Shown: one piece after another, positions 206 to 7,247 of the stretch | How the letters are laid out: the number at the start of each line of letters is the position of its first letter | Numbering within the stretch: the stretch's first letter is position 1 | Virus record (IMG/VR): IMGVR_UViG_3300001683_000048 | Span: 1-24,391 of that record | Source of the DNA: a virus | DNA length: 24,391 nt | Reading direction: 5' to 3' (one strand) | Translations under genes and position numbers: made by a program | Notes under the pieces: model-generated | Seen by the model: only the letters and a program-made list of their open reading frames with translations | What the model was told of the DNA's origin: nothing | Database searches by the model: none

Positions 206-206
<1 letters not shown>
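1..206 (-). CDS. Tail fibre / receptor-binding protein, N-terminal part (runs off window)
   Basis: Only the first 68 codons are present; the gene continues past the left edge. The protein starts MAKLLQLRGGTTLEHSTFTG and continues with REVTVDTDKDTLVVHDG and AGGIPLL. This 'LQ.RGGT...F.G...E.TVDTD..TLVVHDG' pattern is that of the N-terminal domain of phage major tropism determinant (Mtd)-type receptor-binding proteins, which is common at the start of tail-fibre genes. Its ATG overlaps the TAA of the collagen-like fibre gene (TAATG), so the two are probably translationally coupled. The role in host attachment is inferred from the domain and the position in a fibre cluster. The C-terminal receptor-binding part cannot be seen. 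Confidence 0.8.
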
Positions 207-1123
<917 letters not shown>

Positions 1124-2065: not shown

Positions 2066-4291
2066 TTATAAGTTCCTGCTTGTTTGGATTAAAGTTCCTC
2101 GATAATTCAAGGTTTCTAGTTGGAAGCCGACGCCAGCGTCATTCAGTAAGTATAAAGTCTGATTATTCACACTGCCCGGCGTTGCGAATTTACTGTCCCC
2201 CTGAACGGTGTACTCTATCCCTAAGGGGTACAAAGCTGTCGTAGTCGCAGTCGTAGTTGAAGGGTATAGTAGATTACTTGGGTATAAACCAGGTTCTATT
2301 ACGGTATTATCATACCTTTTAGATTTACCCCTACTAGCAACAACTAAACTGTAGGAAGAGCCCGGCTTGCTTGTGATAGAAACGTCTTTTAAGAGAAGTT
2401 TAAGCCTCTGGTTATCTGAGACCCCCTCACTTGTGTTAATACCCCATTTAGATAGCTCTATTAGGGAGGAATATGGGGTACTACCAACTGCGCTAGTCTT
2501 GTCTAGGTAGGGCGCCTCAGCAGTAAAGTCTTTTGTGAGCGATAAGGATACTTTAACTAGCTGTATCTTAGTGCTGTCCGCTAGGCTGACGCCAAACACG
2601 AGCAAGTCATTCCCTAACACTTGAATATTAATGGCCTTAGATAACTGAGGGAACTCCCACTTATGCCATGCTGATTGGACTTTCTCATTACCTTGCCAGA
2701 AAAAGTTATAGACAAAAACTTCATTGGTTTTACCGCCAAGTGCGAAGAGCATATCATTCATTACACTCCCAGCAAGCTGCCGGATGCAAGGGAGATACGT
2801 GGGGCAGTGAGAATTGACGTTAGCTGCATCATTTACACTTGTATCAGGTACTACATAGTACTCACGTACATCTGTGGAATGCCCCTGGTGTATAGTAAAA
2901 TATACATTAGGTCCTAGACCTACTGGACTAACATGTGCATCTGCGCTATACGCAGTACTCACCTGGATGTTGACATCCCTTGGAGAGAGGACCTCAGAAG
3001 ATGAAACAGTATACTGAGCATTCTCCCCGAAGATTAATAATTCCTTATTAAAAGGCATCGCATGTGTTAGCTTAACGGCCTTATTACTGTCTACGGCTAC
3101 ATCAATTGGATCGCTATCAAGAACGTCCGTGACAGTTGTGGGGAAGAAATTATAATATTCCCCTACCTCAGATAGTACTACATTATCATTACATAATAAG
3201 CCCAATCTATTTTTATAAAAGAAAATATCTGAAAGTGCGCTTCCCACAAAAGAAGGCGCAGGTGCGCTATCCGCATCCCCAACGCCTCTAGAGGCCCAAG
3301 TAATTGTGCTGAGAGTGAAGGGGCCAGACGCTGTACGCTCAAACTTATGTGGCAGTGTGGCGGCATTGAAGCTATTTTGTAAACCAGGTCTGAAGGTCTC
3401 TTTATACACAGCCCCATCAGCTTTTACATAATAGTTAGCAAAGGCATTTTTATCATCCCCTGAAATCTCAATAACAGCCCCATCAAAACCAAGTGAACTT
3501 GGCAGATCCTGTAATTTACGGGTTGTTCCGACCCAAGACTCTGTGGCTTGGTCGCCCCATGAATCTGCGCCTTTATAGCCCGTGCTGTTAAGTCTTCGTA
3601 CTACTGACCCTTTAGAGGTCGCGCCAGCACCTAAGGCTGTAGCTATTGCGGTTGCTACCTCAACACCATCCGTCCCCTCTATGCCTCCAGAGGGGACTTT
3701 AACACCCGAAGCATTATAAACATAGTATTGGTAACCCTTTGCATTACTTCTAGTAGTACCGTATGCTATTTCTGTTGTTCTTTTTACCCAGTAATAGAAC
3801 GTGCTTTCCCAGTCGGAGTCCCCATTATCATCCGTTGCTGCATCAAGTGCTGTTACTTTATGCTTGTTAACAACATAAGTAGTATCTCCCACAGTGACGA
3901 GAGAAAAGGCTTCTTTTACAAGTGAACCCGAAGGTACATTGAGGTATGAAGAGGTTGCCCAAGAAATAGGGCTACCACTAGCATTAACAAGAAGTAGGCC
4001 TGTTGTTGCGTCTAATACTACCCAAGCACCGTTTTTAATTAGTAATAAATACTCCTCATTTCCCGCGCCTCTATTATATGAGTGTATAAAAAGGTCCTCA
4101 GGATACCCCGAAAACTCTTGCATGAATTGGGTGGGGTTTCTCTTTTGAACTCCTTTAGCGAGGGAAGGGTAGCAGTTAGTCATTTCACTAGATTGGCTGT
4201 TCAGCCGTCTTTCATGGGGAGCCTCGGTTACTCCATTAAATAACCCCCCTATGGTTTCATTTACCATAGAGCTATACTTAGATACAGCCAT
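2066..4291 (-). CDS. Tail tubular protein B (T7 gp12-like nozzle protein)
   Basis: This 741-aa protein is close in length to T7 gp12 (794 aa). It begins with a gp12-type N-terminus: an IGGLFNGVTEAPHERRLNSQ segment, then EMTNCYPSLAKGVQKRNP, comparable to T7's GGISQQPD...E...GLQKRPP. In T7 the protein forms the hexameric tail nozzle below the gp11 ring. The gene follows the gp11-like gene by 2 nt, the conserved 11-12 order. A segment that resembles the phage promoter lies inside the gene at 3748-3765. Nothing suggests truncation. Confidence 0.92.
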   Translation of the reverse strand: MAVSKYSSMVNETIGGLFNGVTEAPHERRLNSQSSEMTNCYPSLAKGVQKRNPTQFMQEFSGYPEDLFIHSYNRGAGNEEYLLLIKNGAWVVLDATTGLLLVNASGSPISWATSSYLNVPSGSLVKEAFSLVTVGDTTYVVNKHKVTALDAATDDNGDSDWESTFYYWVKRTTEIAYGTTRSNAKGYQYYVYNASGVKVPSGGIEGTDGVEVATAIATALGAGATSKGSVVRRLNSTGYKGADSWGDQATESWVGTTRKLQDLPSSLGFDGAVIEISGDDKNAFANYYVKADGAVYKETFRPGLQNSFNAATLPHKFERTASGPFTLSTITWASRGVGDADSAPAPSFVGSALSDIFFYKNRLGLLCNDNVVLSEVGEYYNFFPTTVTDVLDSDPIDVAVDSNKAVKLTHAMPFNKELLIFGENAQYTVSSSEVLSPRDVNIQVSTAYSADAHVSPVGLGPNVYFTIHQGHSTDVREYYVVPDTSVNDAANVNSHCPTYLPCIRQLAGSVMNDMLFALGGKTNEVFVYNFFWQGNEKVQSAWHKWEFPQLSKAINIQVLGNDLLVFGVSLADSTKIQLVKVSLSLTKDFTAEAPYLDKTSAVGSTPYSSLIELSKWGINTSEGVSDNQRLKLLLKDVSITSKPGSSYSLVVASRGKSKRYDNTVIEPGLYPSNLLYPSTTTATTTALYPLGIEYTVQGDSKFATPGSVNNQTLYLLNDAGVGFQLETLNYRGTLIQTSRNL
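3748..3765 (-). promoter_or_regulatory. Promoter-like site inside the gp12-like gene
   Basis: On the minus strand the 17 bases CATACGGTACTACTAGA match the promoter at 19167-19184 at 14 of 17 positions. The predicted first transcribed base is A instead of G. It lies in coding sequence (Tyr-Gly-Thr-Thr-Arg-Ser), so chance is possible. If active it would boost the end of gp12 and the fibre genes. Confidence 0.3.
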
Positions 4292-4293
4292 GG

Positions 4294-4878
4294 TTACCCC
4301 CTTATTCCTCTAGGATTGCTTCTCCTAGAGATAGTACGTGAGTTGACTGCTGAATCGAATATATTATAATCTCCGACATCGGCGTTGGCCTCAATCATTC
4401 TGCGTCTTGCAGAGTCCTCATCCTTTACTAGGAGAGTGGTCACATCAGATACCCCAACTATCCTTTGATATAAAATACGACTTGCTCGCATAGCTATGTA
4501 GTAAGCTACGCTGTAGTCAATATCCTCATAAAAATAGTCCCATATAACGTCTACCTTCTGTACGCCCCCTGCTGCAAATATGTAAGTGTGTTCAGCTTTA
4601 TTGTAGAGCTTACCTTCTTTCTGGATTAGATTATTATCGGCGGAATCTAATCTTAATACGTAACTTGGGACATTAATATGTCCAGTAGCATCCGCTGTTA
4701 GGGGCCATCCTGACTCAGTGTTCCCGAAGAGCCCTGAGGATAAGACATCCCTACGAACCTCATCAAGTACATTCTCAGCCTGTTGGGCCTCATATACATC
4801 CGCTATATCAGCTAGAGTTTCGATAGGTTGCTCCCCAATGGCCTGGAGTGCAATATTAATTGCTTCAAGTGTTGTCAT
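4294..4878 (-). CDS. Tail tubular protein A (T7 gp11-like gatekeeper)
   Basis: This 194-aa protein nearly matches T7 gp11 in length (196 aa). It begins MTTLEAINIALQAIGEQPIE, the N-terminal signature of this family ('L.AIN..L.AIGE.P...L'), followed by an NVLDEVRRDVLSSGLFGNTE segment. In T7, gp11 forms a dodecameric ring joining the portal to the gp12 nozzle. The gene sits between the terminator behind the capsid gene and the gp12-like gene. A purine-rich GCAGGAAGAGACA precedes its ATG. Expression presumably depends on read-through of the terminator. Confidence 0.92.
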   Translation of the reverse strand: MTTLEAINIALQAIGEQPIETLADIADVYEAQQAENVLDEVRRDVLSSGLFGNTESGWPLTADATGHINVPSYVLRLDSADNNLIQKEGKLYNKAEHTYIFAAGGVQKVDVIWDYFYEDIDYSVAYYIAMRASRILYQRIVGVSDVTTLLVKDEDSARRRMIEANADVGDYNIFDSAVNSRTISRRSNPRGIRG

Positions 4879-4910
4879 TGTCTCTTCCTGCTCAATATTT
4901 TAATAAAACC

Positions 4911-4944
4911 AAAAAAAAGGATACTCACCGAAATGAGTACCCTT
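4911..4944 (-). terminator. Rho-independent terminator behind the major capsid gene (T-phi position)
   Basis: On the minus strand AAGGGTACTCA and TGAGTATCCTT form an 11-bp stem with one G-T pair around a TTTCGG loop. A run of eight T follows at once. It lies 21 nt after the capsid stop codon and before the gp11-like gene, the same place as T-phi after T7 gene 10. The plus strand also shows a T-rich tract after the stem, so it may act in both directions. Confidence 0.92.
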
Positions 4945-4965
4945 AGATTTTTCTTACTTTAACTA

Positions 4966-6018
4966 CTAGTCATTAGTAGCTAATTTAATAACACAACCGT
5001 TGTTCAACACGCCGAAGCCCATAGCGTATGATGAAGTCATCAAATCGCCTAGTTTTTCAGGGATGTAGTTTACTTCTGATTTAATATCAAGAAGCTTAAC
5101 AACGCCTACAGCATTCTGTGTGAACATGTAGATATCGCTTGAGCCAATGTTATTAGACACTAAGATGTTATGCCCAGCAACCTGAACAACCTTACCAGTA
5201 TCAATACCACCGTTACCGCCTTGAGTCATATCCTTATGAACTGCACCAGACTGTACTAGACGGTTGTAGTTCTTAGGTGATACTACTACGCAGCGATCAC
5301 CTGGGACATCTTCCTCATCCATAGTAGTCTGAGCATCAAACAATGAAGCAAGGATTAAATCACCCTTTGCACCCTGAGATGAAGCACTAGCAGTAGTTAC
5401 AGATAATACAGATACAGCAGCAGCGTGAGCAGCATTCCATGCACCTGCGGCGTGAGCAGCAGTGAATACATAAACTACATCACTGTAGCTTACACGGTCA
5501 CCAATAGCATACGCAACTGAAGCAGAGAACGCAGTTACATCAGAGTATGGTTGACCTTCGCCACCATTAACGTCACCAGTATTAGCCGCATTCTTAACAC
5601 AGTTATCTAACTGAGTGATGATAGCAGTATCTACAGTCTTAGCTAGTCTACGACCCATCTCAGAAGAGTACTGAGAACGAGTTTCGTAATGAGCCATTGC
5701 TTCTTCAAAAGAATCAACAAAGACACTGGCATATTTAAGTTCATCAATTTCAATTACACGCTCACCTGCGTTAATTAAATTTGGTGTGATATCAGTACCT
5801 GGAACATGAGTCGATATAGCTGAATCATACTTACCAATTACTGGGAATGAGGCACTCTTGCCAGAAGCAATTGTGCGAGATTGTACCTTCGCTAAGAAGA
5901 TGTTGTTAGTTTCAAAAGCAGTCAGGACTTCGCCTGAGAATACTTTAATTGCTAATTGGCGATCAGATGCTCCCGCTGTTCTGGAAGTACCGATACCTTG
6001 TGATGGTGTAAATGACAT
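4966..6018 (-). CDS. Major capsid protein (T7 gp10A-like)
   Basis: This 350-aa protein is homologous to T7 gp10A (344 aa; HK97 fold). Shared stretches are LAIKVFSGEVLTAFE (22-36), SGKSASFPVIG (52-62), EEAMAHYETRSQYSSEMG (105-122) and a YAMGFGVLNNGCVIKLA ending. It would form the icosahedral shell around the scaffold. Residues about 150-215 have no clear counterpart in T7. Within them YAIGDRVSY...VYVFTAAHAAGAWN (170-195) resembles carbohydrate-binding modules of the CBM5/12 (chitin-binding type 3) class, possibly exposed on the particle surface. The gene has a long leader (6019-6291) and a strong terminator behind it, consistent with very high expression. The ATG is preceded by AAAGGAAAAATAAT. 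Confidence 0.96.
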   Translation of the reverse strand: MSFTPSQGIGTSRTAGASDRQLAIKVFSGEVLTAFETNNIFLAKVQSRTIASGKSASFPVIGKYDSAISTHVPGTDITPNLINAGERVIEIDELKYASVFVDSFEEAMAHYETRSQYSSEMGRRLAKTVDTAIITQLDNCVKNAANTGDVNGGEGQPYSDVTAFSASVAYAIGDRVSYSDVVYVFTAAHAAGAWNAAHAAAVSVLSVTTASASSQGAKGDLILASLFDAQTTMDEEDVPGDRCVVVSPKNYNRLVQSGAVHKDMTQGGNGGIDTGKVVQVAGHNILVSNNIGSSDIYMFTQNAVGVVKLLDIKSEVNYIPEKLGDLMTSSYAMGFGVLNNGCVIKLATND

Positions 6019-6019
6019 A

Positions 6020-6103
6020 TTATTTTTCCTTTAATGAGGTATAAAAAGTCCTAAGAGGACCGTGGGGTTTAGCGCGGAGTGAATAAAGGATGGGTATCCT
6101 CAT
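6020..6103 (-). CDS. Possible 27-aa leader peptide upstream of capsid gene
   Basis: The frame starts ATG at 6103 with a good ribosome site (GAGGT, 7 nt upstream). It encodes a basic 27-aa peptide beginning MRIPILYSLRAKPHGP. Its TAA ends 1 nt before the capsid ATG, which would allow translational coupling. The short hairpin at 6048-6060 lies inside it. No homologue is recognised. It could equally be untranslated leader. Confidence 0.25.
   Translation of the reverse strand: MRIPILYSLRAKPHGPLRTFYTSLKEK
6043..6060 (-). terminator. Weak terminator-like hairpin in capsid leader
   Basis: On the minus strand GTCCT-CTT-AGGAC forms a 5-bp stem with a 3-nt loop and is followed directly by TTTTT. The stem is short, so it may be an attenuator or an RNA-processing or stability hairpin rather than an efficient terminator. 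Confidence 0.35.
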
Positions 6104-6291
6104 GCAATATACCTCAGTATATACAATAGGCCAACAATAGGTTGTCCCGCACTATAAAAATAGGACCCCTGATTACCGTATTGGTAATCTGAGGAGATAA
6201 GAAGGTGATGGCAAGAGTTACACTAGGTATAGAGGGGGGGGTAACCTAGTACCTTGAGGCGGTCATTGTGTGCTACATCACCCACACACAT

Positions 6292-7137
6292 TTAGAATGA
6301 ACTAAGTGCGACACGCCTTTGAACTGAGGCCCTGAATGCAGGGTCCTGTGAATATTTAGGGTTAGACATCTCGTGCATCATCTCTGCTTTAGAGGCGTAT
6401 CCCCCTTGTTTTGCACTCCCTGCGTCCCCGCGAAGTAGGGATGGCCCTCTCTGCGCGGCGTAGCGAGCGAATAAACCTTGTATGGCAAAATTACTAGCGT
6501 CCTCTGATGTTAAAGAAGAGTTAAAAGCCTCTTGTTCAGACTCTGATAGCGCCTCTCCCGCCCACTGAATCATACTATTATACTCAGCCTCACCCCCGAC
6601 TACGGAGTGCATACGAGTGACCGCAGAAGCTGTTAAAGCCTCCTGCCCAGCGATATAAGCATCTACTAAATTTTTAGGGATACCAGAGTCACTTAGGGAT
6701 TTGTACGTTTCCTCAGATAGCGCACCTGAGTCTGCATACTCGCCTTCTAAGGACGCATAGTCTATGCCCTTAGACTCAGTAAGTTCCTTAGCGGCATCTT
6801 GTTCTACGCTCGAATCCTCAGTAACGCCATCTGTTGCAGCCTCAACATCTTCAGGAGTATCTTGCTTCCCTGCGAGCTTATCTTGTAGGTGTTTATACGC
6901 CTTCTCAAGCTCTTCCACTGACTTATACTTACCCGCCAGCATTCTCTCTTGATCAGTCTGTAAAGACTCCTCGGTTTCTTGCGCGGCGGCATCAACTTTA
7001 GCTACCATCTCGGCATCATGAGCCGTTTGTTGTTCCTCGGATGTTAAAGCTAATACGTTTTCTTGCGTTTCGGCACCTGTTTCGGCTTCTGTTTCGGCTT
7101 CTGTTTTGGCTTCTGTTTTGGCTTCTGTGTTCGACAT
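6292..7137 (-). CDS. Capsid assembly scaffolding protein (T7 gp9-like)
   Basis: This 281-aa, very acidic protein lies between portal and capsid genes, the position of T7 gene 9 (scaffold, about 307 aa). Scaffold proteins guide procapsid assembly and then leave. Residues 4-24 are a Thr-Glu-Ala-Lys/Glu repeat encoded by a 12-bp tandem repeat. A segment MLAGKYKSVEELEKAYKHLQ (about 66-85) is the 'KYKSVEELEKAY..L' motif commonly seen in phage scaffold proteins. The C-terminal region (about residue 230 on) is more basic and would contact the shell. The ribosome site is GAGGGGAATAT before ATG. Assignment rests on composition, this motif and gene order. Confidence 0.88.
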   Translation of the reverse strand: MSNTEAKTEAKTEAETEAETGAETQENVLALTSEEQQTAHDAEMVAKVDAAAQETEESLQTDQERMLAGKYKSVEELEKAYKHLQDKLAGKQDTPEDVEAATDGVTEDSSVEQDAAKELTESKGIDYASLEGEYADSGALSEETYKSLSDSGIPKNLVDAYIAGQEALTASAVTRMHSVVGGEAEYNSMIQWAGEALSESEQEAFNSSLTSEDASNFAIQGLFARYAAQRGPSLLRGDAGSAKQGGYASKAEMMHEMSNPKYSQDPAFRASVQRRVALSSF

Positions 7138-7247
7138 ATATTCCCCTCTGTTTTATTAAATTGTAACGCTACTTCTTTAGCTTGCACTGCTAATAATCTG
7201 GATTGAGGTGTGACCTGCATCACATCCCCATATGTTTTAATTAACAT
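7050..7247 (-). CDS. Possible small protein overlapping portal end and scaffold start
   Basis: This 65-aa frame starts ATG at 7247 with a GGGGAG ribosome site 8 nt upstream. It overlaps the last 11 nt of the portal gene and the first 88 nt of the scaffold gene in another frame. It fills the 99-nt gap between them. The first 40 residues look protein-like (MLIKTYGDVMQVTPQSRLLA), then the scaffold's 12-bp repeat is read as a basic Lys-Pro-Lys-Gln repeat. The function is unknown. The tail may be a by-product of the repeat; a real gene is suggested by the start signal and gap filling. Confidence 0.4.
   Translation of the reverse strand: MLIKTYGDVMQVTPQSRLLAVQAKEVALQFNKTEGNICRTQKPKQKPKQKPKQKPKQVPKRKKTY
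7072..7129 (-). repeat. 12-bp tandem repeat in scaffold N-terminus
   Basis: About five copies of a 12-bp unit (minus strand ACAGAAGCCAAA or ACAGAAGCCGAA) run in tandem. They encode Thr-Glu-Ala-Lys/Glu in the scaffold frame and Lys-Pro-Lys-Gln in the overlapping frame. Copy number may vary between relatives. Confidence 0.85.

Follow-up and report, generated by a model that had tools for sequence, protein, structure and literature searches.

A CBM5/12-superfamily module inserted within the T7-type major capsid protein of a marine phage

The major capsid protein (MCP) of a marine virus that infects bacteria carries an in-frame insert of 42 residues, which is best explained as a small beta-structured module belonging to the CBM5/12 superfamily, nearest to the CBM12 type of chitinase A1. 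The virus is represented by a stretch of 24,391 nucleotides (IMG/VR record IMGVR_UViG_3300001683_000048, hereafter the window), in which the insert is encoded at positions 5422-5547 of the minus strand (MCP residues 158-199). Adhesion domains displayed on capsids are already known, and most of those described on phage surfaces are Ig-like fusions or decoration proteins. In the present case, a module from another, carbohydrate-binding superfamily is inserted inside the main shell protein, and two unrelated capsid families carry it at the same position. Literature searches for CBM insertions in capsids turned up no account of this arrangement. Adhesion is the likeliest role of the module, an assignment made with somewhat better than even confidence, and a structural role is its main rival.

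The MCP gene (4966-6018, minus strand) encodes a T7 gp10A-like protein of 350 amino acids with an HK97 fold, matching the Gp10A-like profile PF21703 (E 1.8e-30) and phrog_267 (E 3.4e-63). The closest solved structure to its model is the P-SCSP1u capsid (8i4l, Foldseek E 1.6e-19), followed by other T7-like capsids. A C-terminal extension of the gp10B frameshift type is absent, as neither alternative frame stays open past the MCP stop. Every MCP subunit would therefore carry the module, in line with the initial annotation, which had contrasted a module built into every capsomer with the separate gp10B extension usual in T7-like capsids.

The insert comprises exactly the 42 residues that are absent from six close relatives (L017-L022) and starts after the motif GEGQP. 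The initial annotation had placed it at residues 166-200 (5419-5523, minus strand; ASVAYAIGDRVSYSDVVYVFTAAHAAGAWNAAHAA). The translation was as given there and the module does lie in that span, but the actual insert is somewhat longer and begins earlier; the clean gap in the six relatives confirms that it is an insertion relative to other T7-type capsids. Among close relatives, 19 carry the module, and it is precisely this segment that distinguishes them from the six without it. Module-bearing IMG/VR relatives share 80-89% identity with the window MCP, the module-free ones 66-74% over the best segment and 75-85% over aligned residues. The capsid protein of the nearest named relative, Lau218 (about 49% identity), also lacks the insert, and among 56 T7-type capsids from one scan it is confined to members of the window's own clade. 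A tblastn search with the 49-residue insert against 50,697 phage records gave no match. Misassembly was considered and ruled out by the presence of the insert in many independent assemblies with differing sequences. When the insert region is left out of the T7-type capsid tree, a single branch (support 79/91, recovered in 80% of bootstrap trees) separates all carriers from the rest, so that one gain explains the T7-type cases. That only one gain is seen in this tree counts against the explanation preferred below.

CBM5/12 modules are best known for anchoring chitinases to chitin. The relationship of the insert to this family, which had been proposed from a residue pattern, was upheld by profile search. 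On the full MCP, the CBM_5_12 profile PF02839 matches residues 163-197 with 25.3 bits (E 1.6e-5), slightly below its cut-off of 26.2; searched alone, a 66-residue segment reaches 30.2 bits (E 4.5e-7), above the cut-off, and the insert by itself 31.3 bits. All 13 module sequences searched singly match PF02839. An independent profile made from seven modules, all of them from other viruses, gives the window MCP 54 bits, while the top of 2000 shuffles is 8.6. By this sequence comparison the segment is homologous to CBM5/12 modules, and a chance resemblance does not account for the score. Profile matches in the PDB include the chitinase A1 domain (1ED7, E 6.8e-6) and the CBMs of chitinases and chitin deacetylases, together with a single dioxygenase and some unrelated chains that score weakly.

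An AlphaFold2 (AF2) model was obtained from a 54-sequence alignment (mean pLDDT 78, pTM 0.77), whereas close relatives only gave a pLDDT of 34. The insert (161-200) is predicted with short strands at a pLDDT of about 90 and lies between the spine helix (111-142) and the first A-domain helix (215-235). It is preceded by a flexible junction following the spine helix, residues 143-157 (NAANTGDVNGGEGQP; 5548-5592, minus strand), with pLDDT below 50 at 150-154. In this model the insert folds apart from the HK97 A/P core, contrary to the possibility, raised at the outset, that it belongs to one of these two domains. It appears instead as a separate module at the junction between spine helix and A domain, adjoining the G-loop position of HK97-fold capsids (PMC5701804). 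In P74-26 the G-loop touches the decoration protein on the outside of the shell (PMC6775164), and in the T7-like PhiM1 it helps build an exterior clip pocket (PMC11440229). By analogy with these structures, the module may be expected to face outward. A T=7 head of this type contains 415 subunits (PMC13320782), such that weak sites could act together.

Comparison of capsid genes shows that the insert is exchanged. Between the window and L007, identity is 74% before the insert, 95% within it and 86% after it, and the synonymous difference (pS) falls from 0.62 to 0.03 before rising to 0.35. This synonymous dip points to exchange by recombination. The two genes share a run of 28 identical codons ending at residue 178, a length reached in 1 of 20000 shuffles. 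L008 and L011 show the opposite pattern, with flanks 100% and 99% identical and inserts 92% identical, and together the two comparisons show that recombination moves the region as one block. The insert is under purifying selection, with dN/dS about 0.21 against 0.12-0.15 in the flanks.

The module is not restricted to T7-type capsids. In the unrelated P2-type MCP family phrog_1623, it is found at the equivalent site in 16 of 80 viral MCPs, the remainder having a short linker there, and 13 of 60 P2-type MCPs from bacterial genome assemblies bear it as well. These carriers reside mostly in gut Clostridia and include the isolates Acetatifactor muris DSM 23669 and Faecalibacterium sp. I4-3-84, whose genomes with module-bearing capsid genes are open to examination. 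The P2-type tree needs nine changes in module presence, at least four of them forced by well-supported branches. MCPs 88-94% identical in DNA exist both with and without the module, and near-identical P2-type capsid genes differ by the cassette in the pairs L186/L239 and L170/L188. Such capsids constitute natural matched pairs for studying capsid-wide weak binding in phage ecology.

Beyond capsids, the module occurs in a major tail protein, in a crAss-type ring protein and in tail fibres with up to four copies. A DNA pattern for AHAAGAWN hits 15 viral stretches (nine MCPs, four fibre-like proteins and two chance frames). The close relative L021 has a module-free capsid, with one diverged copy in its adaptor and another in its nozzle. 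Neither has a counterpart in the Lau218 proteins or in those of the window, where the adaptor (tail tubular protein A, PF17212) is encoded at 4294-4878 and the nozzle (tail tubular protein B, PF25675) at 2066-4291, both on the minus strand. The two L021 modules share 53% of bases and are thus not fresh copies of one another. The L021 nozzle (4742-7219) has a further early insertion of more than 100 residues, which is likewise absent from the window and Lau218 proteins.

We moderately favour the explanation that this exchangeable module faces outward and serves adhesion through weak, multivalent binding of glycans. In this mechanism, an in-frame cassette would have been acquired at the loop linking the spine helix to the A domain. 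The module would fold on its own on its flexible N-terminal junction and be displayed outwardly by each of the roughly 415 subunits that form the T=7 head. There it could serve as a weak, highly multivalent adhesin for a surface polysaccharide of the host cell envelope, a biofilm or particles, so that encounters become more frequent before the tail fibres engage. Purifying selection would keep the module while recombination swaps it between phages and, over longer times, moves it among capsid, adaptor, nozzle, tail tube and fibre. Its probable function is that of a swappable sticky patch on the particle exterior. More tentatively, the junction of spine helix and A domain may be a natural docking site where unrelated phages repeatedly plug in and swap a lectin-like cassette; related phages place it also in adaptor, nozzle, tail tube and fibres, which would make the whole particle surface a tunable adhesive. 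The site points to a permissive display position in HK97-fold shells.

A structural role is the strongest competitor, though we regard it as unlikely. The insert would then be an enlarged G-loop-type element that braces the E-loop of a neighbouring subunit and helps to stabilise the capsid or set its size, with the CBM fold serving as a scaffold rather than a lectin. Its position beside the G-loop fits this proposal, since G-loop length locks the E-loop in the P2-type phiRSA1 (PMC8538268) and in P74-26 (PMC6775164), as does the short linker of module-free P2-type MCPs. The closely similar MCPs with and without the module speak against it, however, as do the copies in adaptor, nozzle, tail-tube and fibre proteins, where a bracing role is impossible.

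A genuine chitin-binding module, tethering the phage to particles of chitin or to hosts that colonise it, is distinctly improbable. In its favour, the CBM5/12 proteins among the PDB matches are mostly chitin-active, and the single exposed Trp of CBM12 has a counterpart: W194 (codon 5437-5439, minus strand) aligns by profile and in the variant alignment with Trp687 of Bacillus chitinase A1, the binding residue there. The 1ED7 sequence used for this alignment is presumably correct, as it gives the 28.6 bits and the coordinates of the PDB search exactly. Two-Trp phage modules (L061, L067) are intermediates that support the alignment, and they suggest that it is the C-terminal core Trp which the window module has lost. 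Of the core aromatics, the Tyr (Y170) is kept; where chitinase A1 has its C-terminal core Trp, the window module has a small residue, and variants such as L061 retain a Trp near that position. In some bacterial-genome capsid modules (L287, from a Faecalibacterium genome, L288 and L265), the key Trp is replaced by Phe. The host predicted for Lau218, the nearest named relative, is SUP05 (PMC5224470). SUP05 bacteria oxidise sulphur and are not known to have a link with chitin. CBM5 ligand binding needs a consecutive Y-W or W-W aromatic pair (PMC8449059), for which the variant alignment shows F-T-A-A-H in the window module. With this pair missing and one CBM12-type Trp remaining, and with P2-type carriers mostly in gut Clostridia, chitin itself, the first ligand named in the initial annotation, is doubtful; a polysaccharide ligand is plausible. 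The absent pair, the lost core Trp and the Phe substitutions also weigh against the adhesion reading favoured above.

Less probable still is a nearly neutral mobile peptide, comparable to the in-frame palindromic elements of Rickettsia, spreading as a coding segment without a ligand because surface loops tolerate insertion: recurrent gain and loss, recombination and the diversity of target proteins suit it, but the protein sequence is conserved among copies (dN/dS about 0.2, with common aromatic and His positions), the divergence of the L021 pair argues against recent within-genome copying, and neither a mobility gene nor repeat ends were seen.

Several known systems resemble the proposed adhesion module in part. 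It shares with chitinase A1 the PF02839 match, the Y..G..V.Y..Y...H pattern and the aligned Trp, but has a shorter C-terminus, lacks the second core Trp and the CBM5 Y-W pair, and sits inside a capsid protein, whereas the 1ED7-type domain is attached to an enzyme. The internal insertion recalls the P22-like I-domain, which measures about 120 residues; the window insert has 42 and lies upstream of the first A-domain helix. The I-domain is a larger, stabilising element in the strands of the A-domain sheet (PMC5701804), and the window module differs from it in fold and site. The closest tested precedent, by analogy, is phage Douge, whose Ig-like domains on capsid and tail tube bind mycobacterial glycans (PMC13033339). 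In both cases, a domain of glycan-binding type is carried by every capsid subunit and also by tail proteins, but the fold families are unrelated and the Douge domains are C-terminal fusions rather than internal loop insertions. T3/T7 gp10B and the vertex Ig protein of Peru-2 (PMC13320782) are also accessory surface domains on T7-type heads; they are a minor C-terminal extension or a separate protein, in contrast to an internal module on every subunit.

Other features of these genomes were recorded. The capsid gene of the Lau-type relative L085 (1495-3039; also that of L084) is split by about 600 bases, in an intron-like arrangement holding a small ORF (1840-2208) that appears endonuclease VII/HNH-like by eye; at the Rfam gathering score, no known intron family is found in the interruption. 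In the window, an endonuclease VII-like gene (PF02945; 14348-14815, minus strand) overlaps the end of the DNA polymerase gene, a C5 cytosine methylase fragment (PF00145; 23585-24391, minus strand) is cut by the contig end, and a collagen-like repeat protein, probably a fibre, is encoded at 206-1123 (minus strand; PF01391, E 2.3e-21).
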